Below are positions 20,361 to 37,376 of a DNA stretch of 37,376 nucleotides, in pieces. Origin of the DNA: a virus; IMG/VR virus record IMGVR_UViG_3300018058_000001, positions 1 to 37,376 of that record, one strand, 5' to 3'. A program made the translations under genes and the position numbers. The notes under the pieces were generated by a model. That model saw only the letters and a list, made by a program, of their open reading frames with translations. It did no database searches and was not told the DNA's origin. Every line of letters starts with the position of its first letter. The first letter of the stretch is position 1.

Positions 20361-20377
20361 GGGCTTTACTGAAATAT

Positions 20378-20455
20378 GCTGAATATCCTCTCAATATTTA
20401 GTGAGAGTTTATGTAGATAGACACCACAGAAATATTGAGAGGAAAAAATATCAGC
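20378..20455 (-). promoter_or_regulatory. Long stem-loop just after the major capsid gene
   Basis: A perfect 13-bp inverted repeat (20387-20399 with 20430-20442) is extended outside by 5 more pairs (20378-20382 with 20451-20455) across an internal loop. Within the 30-base loop a second, alternative hairpin is possible (CTCTCA with TGAGAG). It starts 6 bases after the capsid stop codon and has no downstream T-run. It may be an mRNA-processing or 3'-stabilising structure for capsid mRNA, or a weak attenuator before the downstream genes. Confidence 0.6.
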
Positions 20456-20460
20456 GAATA

Positions 20461-21369
20461 CTAGCTTGTTGCCATTTGTCCGTATACAGACCGGGGATCG
20501 TTCCAAAAATATCCCTTACGTTCGTAGTTCTGGATCTTCAGATTGTGGGTATCGAAGTCGGCCCACATATTCTGCTCATAGGGCTCGCGCTCGAACTCAA
20601 TGAATCCCTTCACGCTCGTAAGCAGGAACCAGGCATATTTGCTGGACAGATACCGGCAAGTCTTGAGCCGGACATGACCGTTGAGTTGGTGAATAACGTT
20701 TGGATCGTTATTAGCCGTACCGGGACGGAGTTCTGCCTCCAGAAGACGAAGAGCCGTAGCGCGGAGATTCCACGGAACGAGAAGGGTTTCCGGCATGACA
20801 TCGATCAAAAGACCAGCCTGATCGACGAACGTGGTCGGAATGGCCGTGATTGCCGAGATCAAGCTACCTTCAGCAAGGCTCTGCGGAACTGAGCTGGTAT
20901 TGGCAAACGTTCCACCGTCTACAGGGTGAGAGACGGAAAGCAGCGGCTGGCCGGTACCTCCAGAGTTTGCATCATAGGTTGTGGCTGTGTTGAACAGATA
21001 TGCGGATTGGTAGTTCCAGAACTGCCGCATGCTGTTCTGCATGCCGATAACGGTAGGCCCGAACTCACTCTTATAGAGGTTATCAGCAAGAGCTTGGCGG
21101 GTGAAAACGACACCAAGTCCAGCACCAACTGGGCGCATATTGTACTTATAGCGCTGTCCAGAATTGTTATCGTATGAAATAGAACCACCGTCTTCCTTGA
21201 TCTGTGCGATCCCGGCGTAACGGTTCTGAACGGTAAACTCCTGGTTCATAAAGCTCTGGCGCTTTACAAAGACCTCCTCAAGCTCAAGAGGAACTTCCTT
21301 GTACTTGCCTTCAACAGCATTAAGGCCAGGAAGTAGAAGGTCGTGGATTGAACCTAAATTGATAGTCAT
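20461..21369 (-). CDS. Major capsid protein, HK97-like fold
   Basis: This 302-aa protein lies between the scaffold/decoration genes and the tail-module genes. An N-terminal helix (NAVEGKYKEVPLELEEVF) is followed by YAGIAQIKEDGGSISYD, the extended-loop region and GVVFTRQALADNLYK. Long helices and strands then follow (NSMRQFWNYQSAYLFNTAT, later LLVPWNLRATALRLLEAE). The C-terminal YEQNMWADFDTHNLKIQNYE then KGYFWNDPRSVYG segment is typical of gpT-like capsid proteins. Its length suits this family. A strong ribosome site (AAGGATT) lies before the ATG. It should form the icosahedral shell, with the scaffold acting before DNA entry. Confidence 0.85.
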   Translation of the reverse strand: MTINLGSIHDLLLPGLNAVEGKYKEVPLELEEVFVKRQSFMNQEFTVQNRYAGIAQIKEDGGSISYDNNSGQRYKYNMRPVGAGLGVVFTRQALADNLYKSEFGPTVIGMQNSMRQFWNYQSAYLFNTATTYDANSGGTGQPLLSVSHPVDGGTFANTSSVPQSLAEGSLISAITAIPTTFVDQAGLLIDVMPETLLVPWNLRATALRLLEAELRPGTANNDPNVIHQLNGHVRLKTCRYLSSKYAWFLLTSVKGFIEFEREPYEQNMWADFDTHNLKIQNYERKGYFWNDPRSVYGQMATS

Positions 21370-31661: not shown

Positions 31662-32753
31662 TCACGCGAATACTAGGGTCACTGCATGCCGTGCTGGCGT
31701 TCCGTCTGCGACAATGCTGGCCAGATGACGGCATTTTTCCCTGATCCACTCGGTAGTCATTGATGAATTCCACCTGTGCTCTCTGGATGCAATCCGTAAT
31801 GCTGCCTCTAGGTAATCCTGACGGTTTGGACACATTGCACGGGCGTCATTTGCGATATCGTCCGGCAATTCAAACGGAGGCTCCGCTGTAGAAGCATCGG
31901 CTTCGATAACAGAATTGGTTTCCATAGGGGCAGGCTCCTCCTGGAAATTTTCCCACCTGCGATCTGTGATCCATCCCTGCAGGTGTTTTACAGGGTAGTC
32001 TCTGCGGCGGCGGCGTTCGTTTGTTAACCAGGCAGAATACCGCTGCATCCCATGAAGGACCTCGCTAGCAATCTCCTCGCATCCCTGCTCGTTCCATGAT
32101 TTTAGGGCTGCCGGTTTTGACATTCCCTGACGGTCAGGCGTAATTTTCCAAACCTCCTCGAATGCTGGCGTGTAATCATAACACTTGCGTACTTTGGCTC
32201 TTCCTCTGGCAGAAGGAGTTTTCTTAACCTCTTCCAAAATTGTGAAACAATTCTCTTCTGCCGCGCGTTCCCCCTTTAGGGGGTTAGGGGGTATATTTGT
32301 AATTTGTATTTCTTTTGTATTTCTTTCTTTACTTTGTATGGGGGGTGGTTTTCCGTAACCTGGATTTTCCGTAACCTGGATTTCCCCGGTTACGGTGGAA
32401 TCCATAACCTGGGTTTTCCCGGTTACGGTTTCTCCATTGAAAACATGGGGGACATCGGTAAATAAATATACAGTTCGTCCTGTGACACGCCCATCAGCTC
32501 CCCGCTCACGATCTGTCCGCATAAAGCCGGCTTTTTTTGCATCGCGGATGATCCTCTCTAGCCTAGTCTCGCCGATATCAAATTCCTCTTTTGCCCATTC
32601 CGGCCGGAATTTCCAATCTAACGGCATAGAGAGTAGGGTTGCGACAAAACCACGCACGTCAGGTGAAACACCTCGTGCCTGCAAGAGCCTGTTGTCAATG
32701 ACAGTATACGGTTTGGCTGGTGAGGCATTGCGAAAAATATATTGTGATTTCAT
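31662..32753 (-). CDS. Phage replication initiator, RepO-like
   Basis: The 363-aa protein has an N-terminal winged helix near residues 20-100: VDNRLL-type opening (DNRLLQARGVSPDVRGFVAT), KEEFDIGETRLERIIRDAKK, then VYLFTD. A linker (about 105-185) carries Thr/Val repeats encoded by the DNA repeats. The C-terminal half has DYTPAFEEVWKI and DYPVKHLQGWITDRRWENFQ, resembling the P/TWLNxxRW motif common in phage replication proteins. A lambda O/DnaA-like role is likely: it would bind its own iterons inside the gene and recruit the host helicase. The start makes a TAATG junction with the preceding 94-aa gene. Confidence 0.75.
   Translation of the reverse strand: MKSQYIFRNASPAKPYTVIDNRLLQARGVSPDVRGFVATLLSMPLDWKFRPEWAKEEFDIGETRLERIIRDAKKAGFMRTDRERGADGRVTGRTVYLFTDVPHVFNGETVTGKTQVMDSTVTGEIQVTENPGYGKPPPIQSKERNTKEIQITNIPPNPLKGERAAEENCFTILEEVKKTPSARGRAKVRKCYDYTPAFEEVWKITPDRQGMSKPAALKSWNEQGCEEIASEVLHGMQRYSAWLTNERRRRRDYPVKHLQGWITDRRWENFQEEPAPMETNSVIEADASTAEPPFELPDDIANDARAMCPNRQDYLEAALRIASREHRWNSSMTTEWIREKCRHLASIVADGTPARHAVTLVFA
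32284..32428. repeat. Candidate origin: iteron-like repeats and AT-rich tract inside the initiator gene
   Basis: A 16-bp unit, TTTTCCGTAACCTGGA, occurs twice in tandem (32349-32364 and 32365-32380). The core CCGTAACC is at 32353 and 32369, with a variant CCATAACC at 32402. Its inverse GGTTACGG is at 32388 and 32421. The gene then reads through a T-rich tract (32284-32340) of nearly pure A/T on one strand. Iterons followed by an AT-rich unwinding region inside the initiator gene is the lambda origin layout. Origin function is an inference from this layout. Confidence 0.65.
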
Positions 32754-33037
32754 TATGAATTTTCCTCAAATGCGGCCATGCCAGCCTCGCTGTAAAATAC
32801 CCAGCCCTGCCTCGAAATTGCGCAGCCGTTTGTGTACAGGTGATACCGGCTGAGCCGGACCGGAAACCTGCAGTTGTTAGGGCGCACAAATACGCCCGCT
32901 TTTGTTTTATGATTTACTGGATGAGATTCCCAGATAGGCCGGAGCGGACTAGTATCCGCATAACGGCGCGTAAAAACGCATTCTCTGGGATCAAAATTCC
33001 CGTTGACAACGGGAGTAATCGTGTCTATATCAGTCAT
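32753..33037 (-). CDS. Small protein at the head of the replication operon
   Basis: About 94 aa from the ATG at 33037, chosen because it follows a GAGG ribosome site; the longer TTG start at 33097 lies inside predicted RNA hairpins. The protein is basic and aromatic (MTDIDTITPVVNGNFDPRE, then RPNNCRFPVRLSRYHLYTNG and WVFYSEAGMAAFEE). No family is recognised. It is tied to the initiator by a TAATG overlap, so its translation could control initiator translation. A candidate plus-strand antisense RNA starts at this gene's start codon. Confidence 0.5.
   Translation of the reverse strand: MTDIDTITPVVNGNFDPRECVFTRRYADTSPLRPIWESHPVNHKTKAGVFVRPNNCRFPVRLSRYHLYTNGCAISRQGWVFYSEAGMAAFEENS
33003..33031 (+). 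promoter_or_regulatory. Sigma70-like plus-strand promoter for the antisense RNA
   Basis: TTGACA (33003-33008, perfect consensus) and TATATC (33026-33031) are separated by 17 bases. Transcription would start near 33038, just before the first hairpin of the candidate RNA. The promoter lies inside the 94-aa gene and points opposite to nearly all genes of the window. Confidence 0.6.
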
Positions 33038-33129
33038 ATACAGCCGCCTCTGGTTCGGCTGAAGCCGCATATTTGGATTCGCAGTCCGAATATGCAACAG
33101 ATTGCCCCAGCACCATGCTGGGGTTTTTT
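33038..33129 (+). ncRNA. Candidate antisense regulatory RNA of the replication operon (about 92 nt)
   Basis: Following the promoter, the plus-strand RNA would fold into three hairpins. The first pairs 33041-33046 with 33056-33061 (6 bp). Its 9-base loop contains CCTCT, complementary to the AGAGG in front of the 94-aa gene's ATG at 33037. The second pairs 33067-33077 with 33085-33095 (11 pairs with one G-U). The third pairs 33105-33112 with 33116-33123, followed by T6. This is the layout of counter-transcribed RNAs that set plasmid copy number by blocking replication-gene translation. The function is an inference; the structure is directly visible. Confidence 0.6.
33105..33129 (+). terminator. 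Rho-independent terminator on the plus strand
   Basis: CCCCAGCA pairs perfectly with TGCTGGGG around a three-base loop (33113-33115), followed by six T residues (33124-33129). In the opposite direction the stem has no U-run. It ends the candidate antisense RNA. Confidence 0.8.
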
Positions 33130-33162
33130 GTTTCTACTCTATGCTACTGATTCTGCAAACTA

Positions 33163-33209
33163 AAAACGCCGCTTCACGGGACGGGGAATGTCAGCGTGCG
33201 CGGCGTTTT
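33163..33209 (-). terminator. Terminator of the cargo operon (bidirectional-looking)
   Basis: AAAACGCCGC (33163-33172) and GCGGCGTTTT (33200-33209) form a 10-bp stem with a 27-base loop that can pair internally (CACG with CGTG). On the minus strand it is followed by a fifth T. It lies 55 bases after the exported Cys-rich gene and would end the glycosyltransferase operon, insulating the replication genes. Confidence 0.65.
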
Positions 33210-33264
33210 CAGATGTGTGCATTCTAGTAATAACACACCTAAAACGCGCGCGCAACTAAAATCT

Positions 33265-33563: not shown

Positions 33564-34463
33564 TTATTCTCCGGTAACTGTTTCATAATGACGGGATCTG
33601 ACTCCGTAAAATCCCTCAATCATTCCTATACCTTCACTAAAATTCCTGATTGCAGAGAAAAGCGTACGTAGTCCTCTTCCAATTAAGAAGGCAGGAGGAA
33701 CAATGATAAATTTCCCAACTCCAGTCATAATTCTCCGCGCTGCTTTTGCTTTTAGAGGTTTCAAATCTACATTCAGCATTTTGGCACTATGGATTGTATG
33801 TCTTCCTTTATGCTTACTCATTTTAATGTACCACTTAAGAGTTGTCCTTTCAGTTGGTACAGTTTCGGTAACAATTGCACGATTAGTCCATACAATTTTG
33901 CCTCCATTTTCGCTCAATTGATAAGTGAATAGCGTATCTTCTCCACCATCAAATCCAACGGACTCCTCAAATGTAAGGCCAAGTTTCTGCACAAAACGAA
34001 GATCTAGAAGAAGGTTACAAGTTCCGGCTATTTGGCGCCTGAATCCTTCTGGAAATCTAGGAACATCCCATCTAGCCCGTTTTCGCCATTTCTCTACTCC
34101 ATCTGCATATTTATAGAATTGTGGTCCTGATACCGCCTGCGCCGAATATAAGTTTCTCGTATCCAGAAGACGTGACAACCAATCCTGATTGGCAATCCCA
34201 TCATCATCAATAAATGCTAGCCACTCATATCCCCGTTCTATTGCAGCCTTCAGGGCAGCATTTCTGGCCATAGCGATACCACGATGCGGCTCATGAACAA
34301 GAACTGCATTAGCCGGCAGGTCAGGAAGCTCATGCGTCTCAGGATCATTATCTACAACGATAATGGGTGCTCCCTGCCCTTCTAGGCTCTTAAGGCATTC
34401 GGCAAGCATCTTAGGCCGTTTATAGGTGCACACTGCGATTACAACTTTTAGTTCCCCGTCCAT
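33564..34463 (-). CDS. GT-A family 2 glycosyltransferase
   Basis: The 299-aa protein has the GT2 hallmarks. The nucleotide-binding start is VVIAVCTYKRPKMLAECLKS. The metal/sugar-phosphate motif FIDDDG has Asp at 86-88, and the acceptor-side ED pair is at 174-175 (GGEDTLF). A C-terminal hydrophobic stretch near residues 248-262 (VGKFIIVPPAFLIG) suggests membrane contact. It would transfer a sugar from a nucleotide donor, perhaps to lipopolysaccharide or another envelope glycan of the host. It follows an inverted repeat and lies in an operon with a second glycosyltransferase and a methyltransferase. Confidence 0.8.
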   Translation of the reverse strand: MDGELKVVIAVCTYKRPKMLAECLKSLEGQGAPIIVVDNDPETHELPDLPANAVLVHEPHRGIAMARNAALKAAIERGYEWLAFIDDDGIANQDWLSRLLDTRNLYSAQAVSGPQFYKYADGVEKWRKRARWDVPRFPEGFRRQIAGTCNLLLDLRFVQKLGLTFEESVGFDGGEDTLFTYQLSENGGKIVWTNRAIVTETVPTERTTLKWYIKMSKHKGRHTIHSAKMLNVDLKPLKAKAARRIMTGVGKFIIVPPAFLIGRGLRTLFSAIRNFSEGIGMIEGFYGVRSRHYETVTGE

Positions 34464-34484
34464 ATTAAACTCCAGCTTAGGTTG

Positions 34485-34532
34485 TTATATAACGTATAAC
34501 ATCATCAGACCGTGACATTATACGTTATATAA
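34485..34532. repeat. Perfect 15-bp inverted repeat with an 18-base spacer
   Basis: TTATATAACGTATAA (34485-34499) and its perfect reverse complement (34518-34532) frame an 18-base spacer. The repeat begins two bases after the stop of the 57-aa gene and precedes the glycosyltransferase ATG. It is AT-rich with little GC, so it is more likely an operator or protein-binding site than a classical terminator, although the transcript could form a weak hairpin. Confidence 0.65.
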
Positions 34533-34534
34533 GA

Positions 34535-34708
34535 TTAACGATTCTGGCCTTCTATTTTGGATACGATAGCATCAAGTTTCTGCTCGATTCTATCGACTCT
34601 TATCGAGATTTGATTCTGGTCTTTCCTTAGTTCAGACATTTTCGAACCTATTTCTCCAAATATAATTAGGAGAAGAACTATTCCTGCTAAAGCGAGGTAC
34701 TTATTCAT
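34535..34708 (-). CDS. 57-aa membrane-anchored coiled-coil protein
   Basis: Reading on the minus strand from the ATG at 34706-34708 gives MNKYLALAGIVLLLIIFGEI, then a charged helix (SELRKDQNQISIRVDRIEQK) to a TAA at 34535-34537. One N-terminal membrane helix is followed by heptad-like spacing over residues 25-55. A GGAAGGAA ribosome site lies before the ATG, and an ATGA overlap couples it to the upstream methyltransferase. These features make it real despite its length. It may be a signal anchor, a holin-like protein or a partner of the glycosyltransferases. It resembles the 79-aa protein at 11314-11553 in layout only. Confidence 0.75.
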   Translation of the reverse strand: MNKYLALAGIVLLLIIFGEIGSKMSELRKDQNQISIRVDRIEQKLDAIVSKIEGQNR

Positions 34709-35241
34709 TTCCTTCCCCCCTTTATCCTTGATGGTTTTATTGCCTTAAGCACGAACGCGAATTGATCTCCTTTAACCTCCGAATGGATGATATCGAAGTC
34801 CGCCTTGTAAACGAACCGGTAATCGCTCATGGCGGTCTTTCCGATTTGAGCTGTATATTGCGTCTGGTTGAGGAAGATTAGAGATTCATGGGATATTACC
34901 CTGCAGTGGCCAGGATCGCCCCAGCACCACGGACTTGAAAGGCTTGGTACAGTAGCAAAGAAGTGTCCACCTGGCTTCAGCAGCCTCCAGAAGTCGCTAA
35001 ATTGCGCAAAGAAGAACCGCCAACCTCCTTGCTTGCCGAGGTGTTCAAGGATCTCATACCCATGGATCTCATCGAAGTGGTTATCGGGAAGCGGAACTGG
35101 TAGGATTTCAAGATCGTGAAGCACGTCCGGCTTGTGATCTGGATTTATATCCAGCGTAGTAAGATCCTGCCACTTCCTGCTTCCTTCCAGGAAGAGCCGC
35201 TTATCACGGGTAGCTCCGCATCCGATTAACAGCTCAGGCAT
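34705..35241 (-). CDS. Class I SAM-dependent methyltransferase
   Basis: The 178-aa protein has a glycine-containing motif I (PELLIGCGATRDKRLF), motif II with an acidic end (LTTLDINPDHKPDVLHDLE) and a motif around LPDNHFDEIHGYEILEHLG. A motif-IV-like region RLLKPGGHFFATVP follows. This is the methyltransferase-11 type pattern. It lies between two genes for a glycosyltransferase and a membrane protein, with an 8-base overlap with the first and an ATGA with the second. The likely substrate is a sugar or a small molecule on the envelope. A DNA target is less likely because no target-recognition part is seen. Confidence 0.75.
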   Translation of the reverse strand: MPELLIGCGATRDKRLFLEGSRKWQDLTTLDINPDHKPDVLHDLEILPVPLPDNHFDEIHGYEILEHLGKQGGWRFFFAQFSDFWRLLKPGGHFFATVPSLSSPWCWGDPGHCRVISHESLIFLNQTQYTAQIGKTAMSDYRFVYKADFDIIHSEVKGDQFAFVLKAIKPSRIKGGRK

Positions 35242-36001
35242 CGAGATTTCCTTTTATCTGATAAGGTGCAGTAGACAGCTCCATTGTAGGAGTCAGTGCA
35301 TTGAAACGTTTACCTACATGGACAATTTGCCGCGCTGGTTCATAATCCGCTAAGACTTTGAAACCATGACGTATTACCTTCTTACAGAAGTTGACATCTT
35401 CCGAGAATTGCCCTACAGGTGAAAACTCACTTGCCAAGAACTCTTGCACCTCAGGGATCTGAAGCATCTTTATTATCCCACCTTGACTAAGGCGAGGAAA
35501 TACATCAGCCATACAACCCAGAAACTGCTCTTGCTGGCTGCGATCTGGGTACCAATATGTCTCAAAGAAATATGGATGCCTGATTGTTTCGAACACCTCT
35601 CTTTTCACAAGCAGGCAGCCAGCTCCAACGAATTCCATTTCTGTCAGCCCAGGATACTGGCCATCCTCATTAACTACAACTGGACGGCCAACCCAGTTGT
35701 AAGGAGGCCTGCGCTGCGGATATGGAACTGACATAACATCCTTGTCATATGCCAGCATGGTCTGTAGAACCTGATTCGGTAGAACGACATCGGAATCCAC
35801 AAAGAAGACGTGGGTTGCCCCTTGCTTCAGGGCGGCATCTACTAGTTCATTCCGGCTCACAGCAATTCCAGCCGCATCCCTAGTCAGGAGAATGGCATCA
35901 AGGTCTCCCCTGTTTCCAAGAAGTTGACAAAGGCTTTGAGCCATTTCAGAAATCCATTCTCCTACACTTGGAACGCAGATGGCAATTTTAGGTTTCTTCA
36001 C
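35234..36001 (-). CDS. Phage-type GT-A glycosyltransferase
   Basis: The 255-aa protein starts at GTG (35999-36001) behind an AAAGGA ribosome site. The Rossmann-like start is KIAICVPSVGEWISEMAQSL. A DxD motif is at residues 69-71 (FFVDSDVVL). PQRRPPYNWVG and a GAGCLLVKREVFETI acceptor-region segment follow, then EDVNFC (E201-D202) and HVGKR near the end. These features match phage-borne glycosyltransferases. The 14-base overlap with the preceding gene and the 8-base overlap with the methyltransferase point to one operon. Together with the second GT it could glycosylate the host surface; DNA glucosylation is an alternative. Confidence 0.8.
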   Translation of the reverse strand: MKKPKIAICVPSVGEWISEMAQSLCQLLGNRGDLDAILLTRDAAGIAVSRNELVDAALKQGATHVFFVDSDVVLPNQVLQTMLAYDKDVMSVPYPQRRPPYNWVGRPVVVNEDGQYPGLTEMEFVGAGCLLVKREVFETIRHPYFFETYWYPDRSQQEQFLGCMADVFPRLSQGGIIKMLQIPEVQEFLASEFSPVGQFSEDVNFCKKVIRHGFKVLADYEPARQIVHVGKRFNALTPTMELSTAPYQIKGNLDA

Positions 36002-36218: not shown

Positions 36219-36233
36219 AATTATCTCCGTTCA

Positions 36234-36255
36234 TCTATAATTATAGAATTATAGA
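36234..36255. promoter_or_regulatory. 22-bp operator/centromere-like element (copy 1)
   Basis: TCTATAATTATAGAATTATAGA contains a perfect 14-bp palindrome (TCTATAATTATAGA), then another TATAG half-site 8 bases on. The same element with one base changed lies at 37226-37247 in front of parA. Half-sites at an 8-bp step are typical of RHH protein arrays. This copy covers the -10 box of the next operon. Confidence 0.65.
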
Positions 36256-36276
36256 CTGACCTATTTGCACTTTCAA
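36248..36276 (-). promoter_or_regulatory. Sigma70-like promoter of the glycosyltransferase cargo operon
   Basis: On the minus strand TTGAAA (36271-36276) and TATAAT (36248-36253, perfect -10) are separated by 17 bases. The start would be near 36241, with a ribosome site before the ATG at 36218. The -35 overlaps the end of the RHH gene, and the -10 lies within the 22-bp element, so the RHH protein could repress it. Confidence 0.65.
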
Positions 36277-36533
36277 GCTTTAATCGACTTGTACTCATAG
36301 GCAGGCTCGCCCTGCCTAGCTAACCACTCGTCCACAGCTTCTGCTACAAGCTGCTGAAGCGCGGTTTGCCGCTCGGATGCGATATCCTTCATACGCTTAT
36401 GGGTTGCTGGGCTCATATAAAACGTCATTCCAACCCGGTCTTTCCCTGCTGTTTTCCGCACAGCCTTATGGGTAGGACGCGGGGTTGCTTCCTCAAACTG
36501 AGCGGTTATATCACGGCTAATTGCTCTGCTCAC
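36273..36533 (-). CDS. Ribbon-helix-helix partition/repressor protein (ParG/CopG-like)
   Basis: The 86-aa protein starts with a flexible charged tail (about residues 1-30). The RHH core follows: the strand KDRVGMTFYMSPATHKRMKD, then a helix (ASERQTALQQLVAEAVDEWL), residues 31-72. The GTG start overlaps the end of parA by 4 bases (GTGA), the usual parA-parB-type coupling. In type Ib partition systems such small proteins bind centromere repeats and repress their own promoter. The two 22-bp elements flanking the operon are the likely sites. Confidence 0.8.
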   Translation of the reverse strand: MSRAISRDITAQFEEATPRPTHKAVRKTAGKDRVGMTFYMSPATHKRMKDIASERQTALQQLVAEAVDEWLARQGEPAYEYKSIKA

Positions 36534-37162
36534 TGATTTGTCTCCTTTTCAAGCCAAGCGAATAGTTCTTTAAATTCCAAGGAACTCTTCGAATCTGGGT
36601 CTACTTCACAAACTCCCTTTCCCGAACTTACGGAATCTGGCACGACCGTCCTTTGAATGATGCGGGCTGGCACAACAGGGTGCCCTAATGCAGTAAGCAT
36701 GCCTTCCATCTGTTTAGCGCGGGCAGCTTCCTTATGAGCTGGAACTATGCTCATCAAGTAGAAATACCTTTTTCCTGCACGTTTAGCTGACTGCATAGTT
36801 GCAATGGATGCTTCTACATCAACCTCAAGTGGACGGCATGGGATCAGCGTAAGATCGGCAGACACCATTCCCGCATTTGCCAAGTGAGTAGCCCGGCCTG
36901 GAAGGTCCAGGAATACCCAATCGTATCCAGCATCCCTAAGCTCATTAAGAACAGCATCCAGCTCCCCTACCCCAGCAGACCTTACGGTTGGAGTATCCAA
37001 CCCGTTCCTTCGTGTTCCCCATTTACGGGAAGTCCCTTGTTCGCTGTCCATATCTATGATTGCAGCTTTATGCCCGGCCGCAACAGCGCAAGTTGCAAGG
37101 TTAATCGCCGTGCAACTTTTGCCTGTGCCTCCCTTTTGCTGGCCTAGCGCGATAATGCGCAT
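36530..37162 (-). CDS. parA: ParA-type Walker ATPase (partition)
   Basis: The 210-aa protein has the deviant Walker A KGGTGKS (signature Lys10, catalytic Lys15), motif A' IIDMDSEQG (residues 35-43) and the Walker B WVFLDLPG with Asp86. It also has the LIPCRPLEVDVEAS and KRYFYLMSIVPAHKE segments of short plasmid ParAs. It is much shorter than chromosomal ParA, lacks an N-terminal DNA-binding domain, and fits type Ib (ParF-like). It should segregate a low-copy circular molecule with the RHH protein. Its GCAAGGAG ribosome site and an upstream operator fit autoregulation. It is the main evidence for plasmid-like maintenance. Confidence 0.9.
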   Translation of the reverse strand: MRIIALGQQKGGTGKSCTAINLATCAVAAGHKAAIIDMDSEQGTSRKWGTRRNGLDTPTVRSAGVGELDAVLNELRDAGYDWVFLDLPGRATHLANAGMVSADLTLIPCRPLEVDVEASIATMQSAKRAGKRYFYLMSIVPAHKEAARAKQMEGMLTALGHPVVPARIIQRTVVPDSVSSGKGVCEVDPDSKSSLEFKELFAWLEKETNQ

Positions 37163-37195
37163 CGCGATTTCTCCTTGCAGTGCATCCTGAAATCG

Positions 37196-37224
37196 TCTAT
37201 ATCACCCTTTATCGAAGTCTGCAA
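37196..37224 (-). promoter_or_regulatory. Weak sigma70-like promoter of parA
   Basis: On the minus strand TTGCAG (37219-37224) and TATAGA (37196-37201) are separated by 17 bases. The 22-bp operator copy ends just before the -35. A leader with AAGGAG follows. The -35 is poor, so an activator or another start is possible. Confidence 0.45.
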
Positions 37225-37225
37225 G

Positions 37226-37247
37226 TCTATAATTATAGAATTGTAGA
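37226..37247. promoter_or_regulatory. 22-bp operator/centromere-like element (copy 2)
   Basis: TCTATAATTATAGAATTGTAGA is identical to copy 1 except for one base (A to G). It is centred between the parA promoter and the divergent plus-strand gene, ideal for repressing both. On either strand it contains a TATAAT hexamer. A centromere/operator bound by the RHH protein is the simplest reading. Confidence 0.65.
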
Positions 37248-37283
37248 TTTTTTTACACAGATAGATGTGGACGGGGATGTGAA

Positions 37284-37376
37284 ATGAGTAAGAAAAAAAC
37301 TGGAGATGCAAAAAGGGTCGCAGGTGCGACCTTCGATGCGACCCAAATTGCGACCTTCGCTAGGTGGGTCGCATAT
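37284..37376 (+). CDS. N-terminal part of a small membrane protein (divergent from parA)
   Basis: The plus-strand ATG at 37284 opens a frame (MSKKKTGDAKRVAGATFDAT, then QIATFARWVAY) that is still open after 31 codons at the window end. The ribosome site is only a GGGG stretch 9 bases upstream. The first 11 residues are Lys-rich; the next part encodes ATF/ATQ repeats. With base 1 following, the protein would be 56 aa with a C-terminal membrane helix (entry at 1-78). No family is recognised. A plus-strand gene is exceptional here. Confidence 0.5.
   Translation, partial: MSKKKTGDAKRVAGATFDATQIATFARWVAY
37316..37373. repeat. TGCGACC repeats, three at exact 12-bp steps
   Basis: TGCGACC occurs at 37325, 37337 and 37349, exactly 12 bp apart. 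It is flanked by inverted copies GGTCGCA at 37316-37322 and 37367-37373. They lie within the coding frame of the plus-strand gene, so part of the regularity comes from ATF/ATQ codons. A protein-binding or origin site is also possible. Confidence 0.45.

Follow-up and report, generated by a model that had tools for sequence, protein, structure and literature searches.

The replication operon of the virus studied here is probably held in check by a small antisense RNA. We propose that this RNA blocks translation of the 94-aa gene at the head of the operon and hence, by translational coupling, that of the replication initiator, so keeping copy number low. The DNA analysed is a virus record of 37,376 bases (the whole of this stretch is termed the window), in which the recognisable genes all lie on the minus strand. 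The proposed RNA gene is on the plus strand and faces the start of the replication operon, the antisense geometry that an earlier note on this DNA had described. It is a well-formed candidate, confirmed at the level of sequence, and we infer its function. The features discussed are collected in Table 1.

Table 1. Position of the antisense RNA gene and associated features (window coordinates).
Feature	Position	Strand	Description
Predicted antisense RNA, ~92 nt	33038..33129	+	5′ end from promoter spacing, 3′ end from T tract
Antisense RNA promoter	33003..33031	+	TTGACA 33003-33008, 17-nt spacer 33009-33025, TATATC 33026-33031
Palindrome TCCCGTTgacAACGGGA	32998..33014		Centred on antisense −35 box; unique in window
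Hairpin 1	33041..33061	+	CAGCCG-CCTCTGGTT-CGGCTG, 9-nt loop CCTCTGGTT
Hairpin 2	33067..33095	+	13 pairs, two G-U (A-C mismatches on other strand)
Intrinsic terminator (hairpin 3)	33104..33129	+	Stem 33104-33124, then T6 to 33129
94-aa gene	32753..33037	-	No known family; first gene of replication operon
Replication initiator, 363 aa	31662..32753	-	PHROG 270, phage O/DnaD-like
Five 11-bp iterons	32353..32428		CCRTAACCTGG + inverted CCGTAACCGGG, inside initiator gene
Candidate promoter, 94-aa/initiator operon	33131..33159	-	TTTGCA, 17, TAGAAA; 8/12 matches, weak
Inverted repeat with A/T tracts	33160..33212		Between replication operon and 98-aa gene
Partition cassette	36226..37255	-	RHH protein 36273-36533, ParA 36530-37162, between two repeat arrays

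The −35 and −10 boxes and the 17-base spacing that had been noted opposite the genes are present. Taken alone the pair of boxes carries little weight and is not significant, because promoter-like sites are common on the plus strand (24, compared with a shuffle mean of 14 per strand). The TATATC box lacks the final T of the E. coli type and is thus weak by E. coli rules, and a scan for E. coli-type promoters did not list the site. The sigma-70 consensus of S. meliloti is CTTGAC-N17-CTATAT (PMC2573895). Read as GTTGAC-N17-CTATAT, the antisense promoter agrees with this at 11 of 12 positions, and it is the only match with one mismatch in the window. Most alphaproteobacterial sigma-70 promoters are without a T at −7 of the −10 element; their commonest spacing is 17 bp, and the commonest gap to the start site is 6 bp (PMC8407463). 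That gap places the predicted 5′ end of the RNA at 33038, 1 nt upstream of the 94-aa start codon, and the RNA covers the AGAGG sequence. The palindrome TCCCGTTgacAACGGGA over the −35 box is a possible operator, and a protein bound there could switch the antisense RNA off. The same palindrome would also form a hairpin in the mRNA of the 94-aa gene.

Three consecutive hairpins followed by a terminator had been described within 127 bases. The positions and the terminator stand, but there are only two hairpins together with the terminator hairpin. The terminator stem has nine pairs, including the expected eight Watson-Crick pairs at 33105-33123, and is followed by the T6 tract. On searching both strands of the window, no other terminator combined a stem of ≥8 pairs with T6. 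Dinucleotide shuffling (n = 400, both strands) generated 20 such terminators in total, so that ~0.05 is expected per shuffled window, and none of the 400 shuffles placed a promoter (TTGAC/TAT) within ~190 nt upstream of one.

The calculated folding energy of the plus strand over 33040-33131 is −45.9 kcal/mol, compared with a shuffle mean of −25.9 (z = −6.1). For the reverse strand of the same interval it is −38.0 kcal/mol (z = −3.6). The plus strand is therefore better by 8 kcal/mol, partly because the G-U pairs of hairpin 2 become A-C mismatches in the other strand. These G-U pairs, together with a T6 tract that would work only in the plus direction, indicate that the RNA is read from the plus strand. 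When both strands were scanned in windows of 92 nt (4,972 in all), the 400 most stable included only one with a lower z than the antisense RNA; this ranking used single-base shuffles. The lowest (z = −8.5) was at 20371-20462, between the gene ending at 20461 and a 501-aa gene, where there is a long inverted repeat (CCTCTCAATATTT ... AAATATTGAGAGG) without a T tail.

The loop of hairpin 1 contains CCTCT (33047-33051), which faces the AGAGG of the 94-aa gene (33051-33047, 9 nt before the ATG at 33037-33035), in agreement with the complementarity originally proposed. The CUGG within the same loop (CCUCUGGUU) is a YUNR motif, and such motifs are typical of loop-loop antisense systems (PMC4485353). 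In the modelled sense mRNA the Shine-Dalgarno sequence occupies the apical loop of hairpin 1, with AGA fully and GG partly unpaired, and the predicted duplex between the antisense RNA and the leader is far more stable than the separate folds.

The codon use of the 94-aa frame is the best of the six frames, but weakly so, and AlphaFold prediction of the protein from the single sequence yielded no useful model (pLDDT 36). The 363-aa initiator has no match in Pfam or NCBIfam, but does match PHROG 270 and related initiators of phages. Its start overlaps the stop codon of the 94-aa gene as TAATG at 32753, the linkage that had been pointed out. The initiator also has its own GAGG ~10 nt before its ATG, and coupling of its translation to that of the 94-aa gene is therefore an assumption and not certain. 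The iterons within the initiator gene are the probable origin of replication; the lambda gene O likewise contains the origin (PMC6022878). Upstream of the operon, the inverted repeat is probably a bidirectional terminator that ends transcription of the 98-aa gene. This would cut the operon off from upstream transcription, so that it needs its own promoter between there and 33050. A leader initiated at the candidate promoter would sit wholly opposite the antisense RNA.

Two other reading frames in this region were set aside. A 28-codon frame on the minus strand (33116-33030; ATGACTGA) terminates over the 94-aa start codon and is reminiscent of tap leader peptides, but has no Shine-Dalgarno sequence, and chance alone could well produce a frame of this kind. 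A plus-strand frame at 32840-33163 encloses the terminator and scores no better for codon use than the 94-aa frame.

The structural genes in the window are of phage type, accompanied by a terminase. Relatives of the terminase in genomes are mainly from Alphaproteobacteria and the best plasmid relatives of the ParA ATPase are mainly alphaproteobacterial; the host is probably an alphaproteobacterium in which the virus is kept as a plasmid. A small serine recombinase is encoded, and no integrase was recognised among the genes of the window. The operon of ParA and the ribbon-helix-helix (RHH) protein is flanked by nearly identical arrays of 8-bp repeats (TCTATAATTATAGAATTATAGA; 36226-36263 and 37218-37255) that are probable partition sites and operators, and this layout is as expected for a partition cassette. 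Given the cassette with its repeats, the PHROG-assigned initiator with internal iterons and the failure to recognise an integrase, the phage-plasmid lifestyle suggested by the earlier note is well supported, though not proved. Between the replication and partition modules (33564-36001) are two glycosyltransferase-like genes and a methyltransferase-like gene; the 299-aa glycosyltransferase has a single match of 32%, in a human faecal phage. Clustered TGCGACC repeats and inverted repeats are present at positions 37308-37374, the right end of the record.

The closest relative of the terminase (60% identity) belongs to an integrated prophage with an integrase and different replication genes, indicating that structural and replication modules have been exchanged. 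Because its replication genes differ, it was dropped as a comparison for the RNA region. Viral contigs were searched with patterns from the 94-aa gene, the initiator, ParA and the coat-position protein, plasmids and phages by both DNA and protein, and genome contigs for the initiator; these collections yielded neither a homologue of the 94-aa gene nor a close homologue of the initiator. The same was true of 32 terminase-related virus records, and 385 alphaproteobacterial genomes contained no close relative of the initiator, the 94-aa gene or the RNA region. Iteron and partition-repeat patterns used as queries returned no relatives for covariation. A 28-nt stretch within an unrelated 675-aa gene was the only DNA match to the RNA region, and the ten sequences that match the loop-1 16-mer have no genes in common with the window; we attribute both to chance. 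Among remote initiator homologues in phages, genomes and plasmids none of eight has an antisense terminator upstream, so the RNA does not generally accompany initiators of this family.

We suggest the following mechanism. An RNA of ~92 nt would be counter-transcribed constitutively from 33038 to 33129; its complementarity to the replication mRNA leader would be complete, ending 1 nt short of the first start codon. Hairpin 1 has complementary 9-nt loops in the two RNAs, with the Shine-Dalgarno sequence of the 94-aa gene displayed in one of them, and first contact in the cell would probably be made there. Pairing would spread from the loops, and ribosome binding at the 94-aa gene would then be blocked. 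With the stop codon of that gene lying on the start codon of the initiator, lowered translation of the 94-aa protein would result in less initiator. The dose of antisense RNA would track the DNA copy number, and the phage-plasmid would be held at low copy.

Interference between convergent promoters is a real rival to translational blocking. The lambda promoter pO is close to the beginning of gene O and fires against pR; its loss alters origin-proximal transcription and replication, and the OOP RNA does not act on the O-P mRNA (PMC3985674). Here too a convergent promoter heads the operon of an O-like initiator with iterons, and collision might damp transcription of the initiator and origin, the RNA itself being minor. 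Yet here an anti-Shine-Dalgarno loop is set against the ribosome-binding site of the first gene, and G-U pairs maintain hairpin 2 in the plus strand, a feature for which interference would have no need; we consider this explanation unlikely. It is also rather unlikely that the structured 5′ leader of the replication mRNA acts in cis (a folding switch would be one form of this) and that the plus-strand signals are coincidental. The sense leader does fold better than its shuffles (z = −3.7 and −3.6) with the Shine-Dalgarno sequence in a loop, but over the same interval the plus strand has the 8 kcal/mol advantage, the T6 tract is present on that strand only, and the promoter-terminator pair arose in no shuffle.

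Antisense pairing might alternatively induce a terminator in the replication mRNA, i.e. attenuation as in repABC or pT181. The repABC antisense RNA acts in this way (PMC3155836), and ~21 nt into the 94-aa gene there is a hairpin (33014-32998) whose T-rich tail is weak. However, no repABC-type switch of the leader to a terminator was seen in the computed folds. This hairpin, the only terminator-like one downstream, is unchanged, with pair probabilities of ~0.98 compared with 0.99 when calculated with and without the antisense RNA; moreover its tail is only ATTTTGAT and it is located within the coding region. We regard attenuation as very unlikely here. Lastly, a stray plus-strand terminator may have fallen beside a promoter-like site, giving an RNA of no consequence. 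In favour of this are the 24 promoter-like sites on that strand and the failure to find relatives in which the elements are conserved, but the uniqueness of the terminator against the frequency expected from shuffling, the absence of the pair from all 400 shuffles and the fold z of −6.1 make a chance origin highly improbable.

Translational blocking by the antisense RNA is favoured by several lines of evidence. The gene is complete, with a single strong terminator and a promoter-terminator pairing that shuffling did not reproduce. The promoter fits an alphaproteobacterial consensus (11/12) and the relatives of ParA and the terminase are mainly alphaproteobacterial. The fold is exceptional and biased to the plus strand; the Shine-Dalgarno sequence lies in a sense loop, a YUNR motif is present and the antisense-leader duplex is stable; and the context is that of a plasmid, with internal iterons in the initiator gene and a ParA/RHH cassette. 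The proposal is weakened by the lack of homologues for covariation in the collections searched, the abundance of promoter-like sites on the plus strand, the weak sense promoter, the weak codon support for the 94-aa gene, the GAGG that the initiator has of its own, and the remote initiator homologues without an antisense terminator.

A more far-reaching possibility, which we consider unlikely, is that a single antisense RNA acting on a lambda-O-type initiator operon steers the virus between low-copy upkeep and lytic amplification, a palindrome-binding protein switching its promoter. Were this so, silencing of the antisense RNA would release the same origin to fire at the lytic rate. How phage-plasmids hold their copy number as plasmids and yet replicate fast as phages has been worked out mainly for P1, N15 and a few mycobacteriophages. 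Antisense control here appears to be joined to a phage-type (O-like) initiator with the origin in its own gene, so that the switch from plasmid to lytic replication could be tested with a few small constructs. The RNA would also add an antisense RNA that is outside every Rfam family, and the example illustrates why genes of this kind in Alphaproteobacteria are undervalued when promoters are judged by E. coli rules.

Comparison of the whole window with Rfam gave no match at gathering scores, and a permissive scan gave weak unrelated matches that were far below gathering; the earlier opinion that this is not a known family is therefore upheld. The general properties of plasmid counter-transcribed RNAs are present in the sequence, i.e. 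a short RNA gene opposite an operon leader with its own promoter and terminator, stable stem-loops, complementary loops and a YUNR motif (CUGG in loop 1). The best reading is that the RNA would work like the antisense RNAs of plasmid copy control, yet is a member of no family tested.

CopA of plasmid R1 (IncFII) is an antisense RNA of ~90 nt with stem-loops, made opposite the leader of the coupled tap frame and initiator. The RNA described here is like the CopA/CopT system in its length, its stem-loops and its position opposite a small frame coupled (as we suppose) to the initiator. It differs in having no Rfam match, in that the coupled gene is of 94 aa, and in that the Shine-Dalgarno sequence is covered directly. 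The OOP RNA of lambda covers the 3′ end of the upstream gene cII, whereas the present RNA lies over the 5′ leader of the operon's first gene. What the two share is a small antisense RNA whose promoter heads an O-type initiator region, with iterons inside the gene for that initiator (PMC3985674, PMC6022878).

In the repABC plasmids (p42d, pTi) a short antisense RNA similarly lies opposite the leader of an initiator with the origin inside its coding sequence (PMC3155836), and these plasmids are alphaproteobacterial, the same class as the inferred host. That RNA is placed between repB and repC and works by attenuation (PMC3155836). Here, by contrast, the initiator is phage O-like (PHROG 270) so that the RNA does not lie between repB and a RepC-family initiator, the partition genes are elsewhere (the ParA gene is 3.4 kb away) and the RNA comprises two hairpins and a terminator. 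RNAII of pMV158 (copG-repB) prevents translation from starting in an operon where a small gene precedes that of the initiator (PMC4485353), as we propose here. It is however an RNA of 48 nt with one hairpin, located between both genes and binding by its 5′ tail. The present RNA faces the first gene, has two hairpins and a terminator, and has a loop complementary to the Shine-Dalgarno sequence. The replication region of extrachromosomal mycobacterial prophages, phage-plasmids with parABS, also contains a noncoding RNA; that RNA is required for replication, in phages without repA (PMC7157519), whereas an initiator protein is present here and the RNA is predicted to be inhibitory. The combination that most sets this system apart is that of a phage O-like initiator with the origin inside its gene, an orphan first gene, and a palindrome on the −35 box of the antisense promoter.
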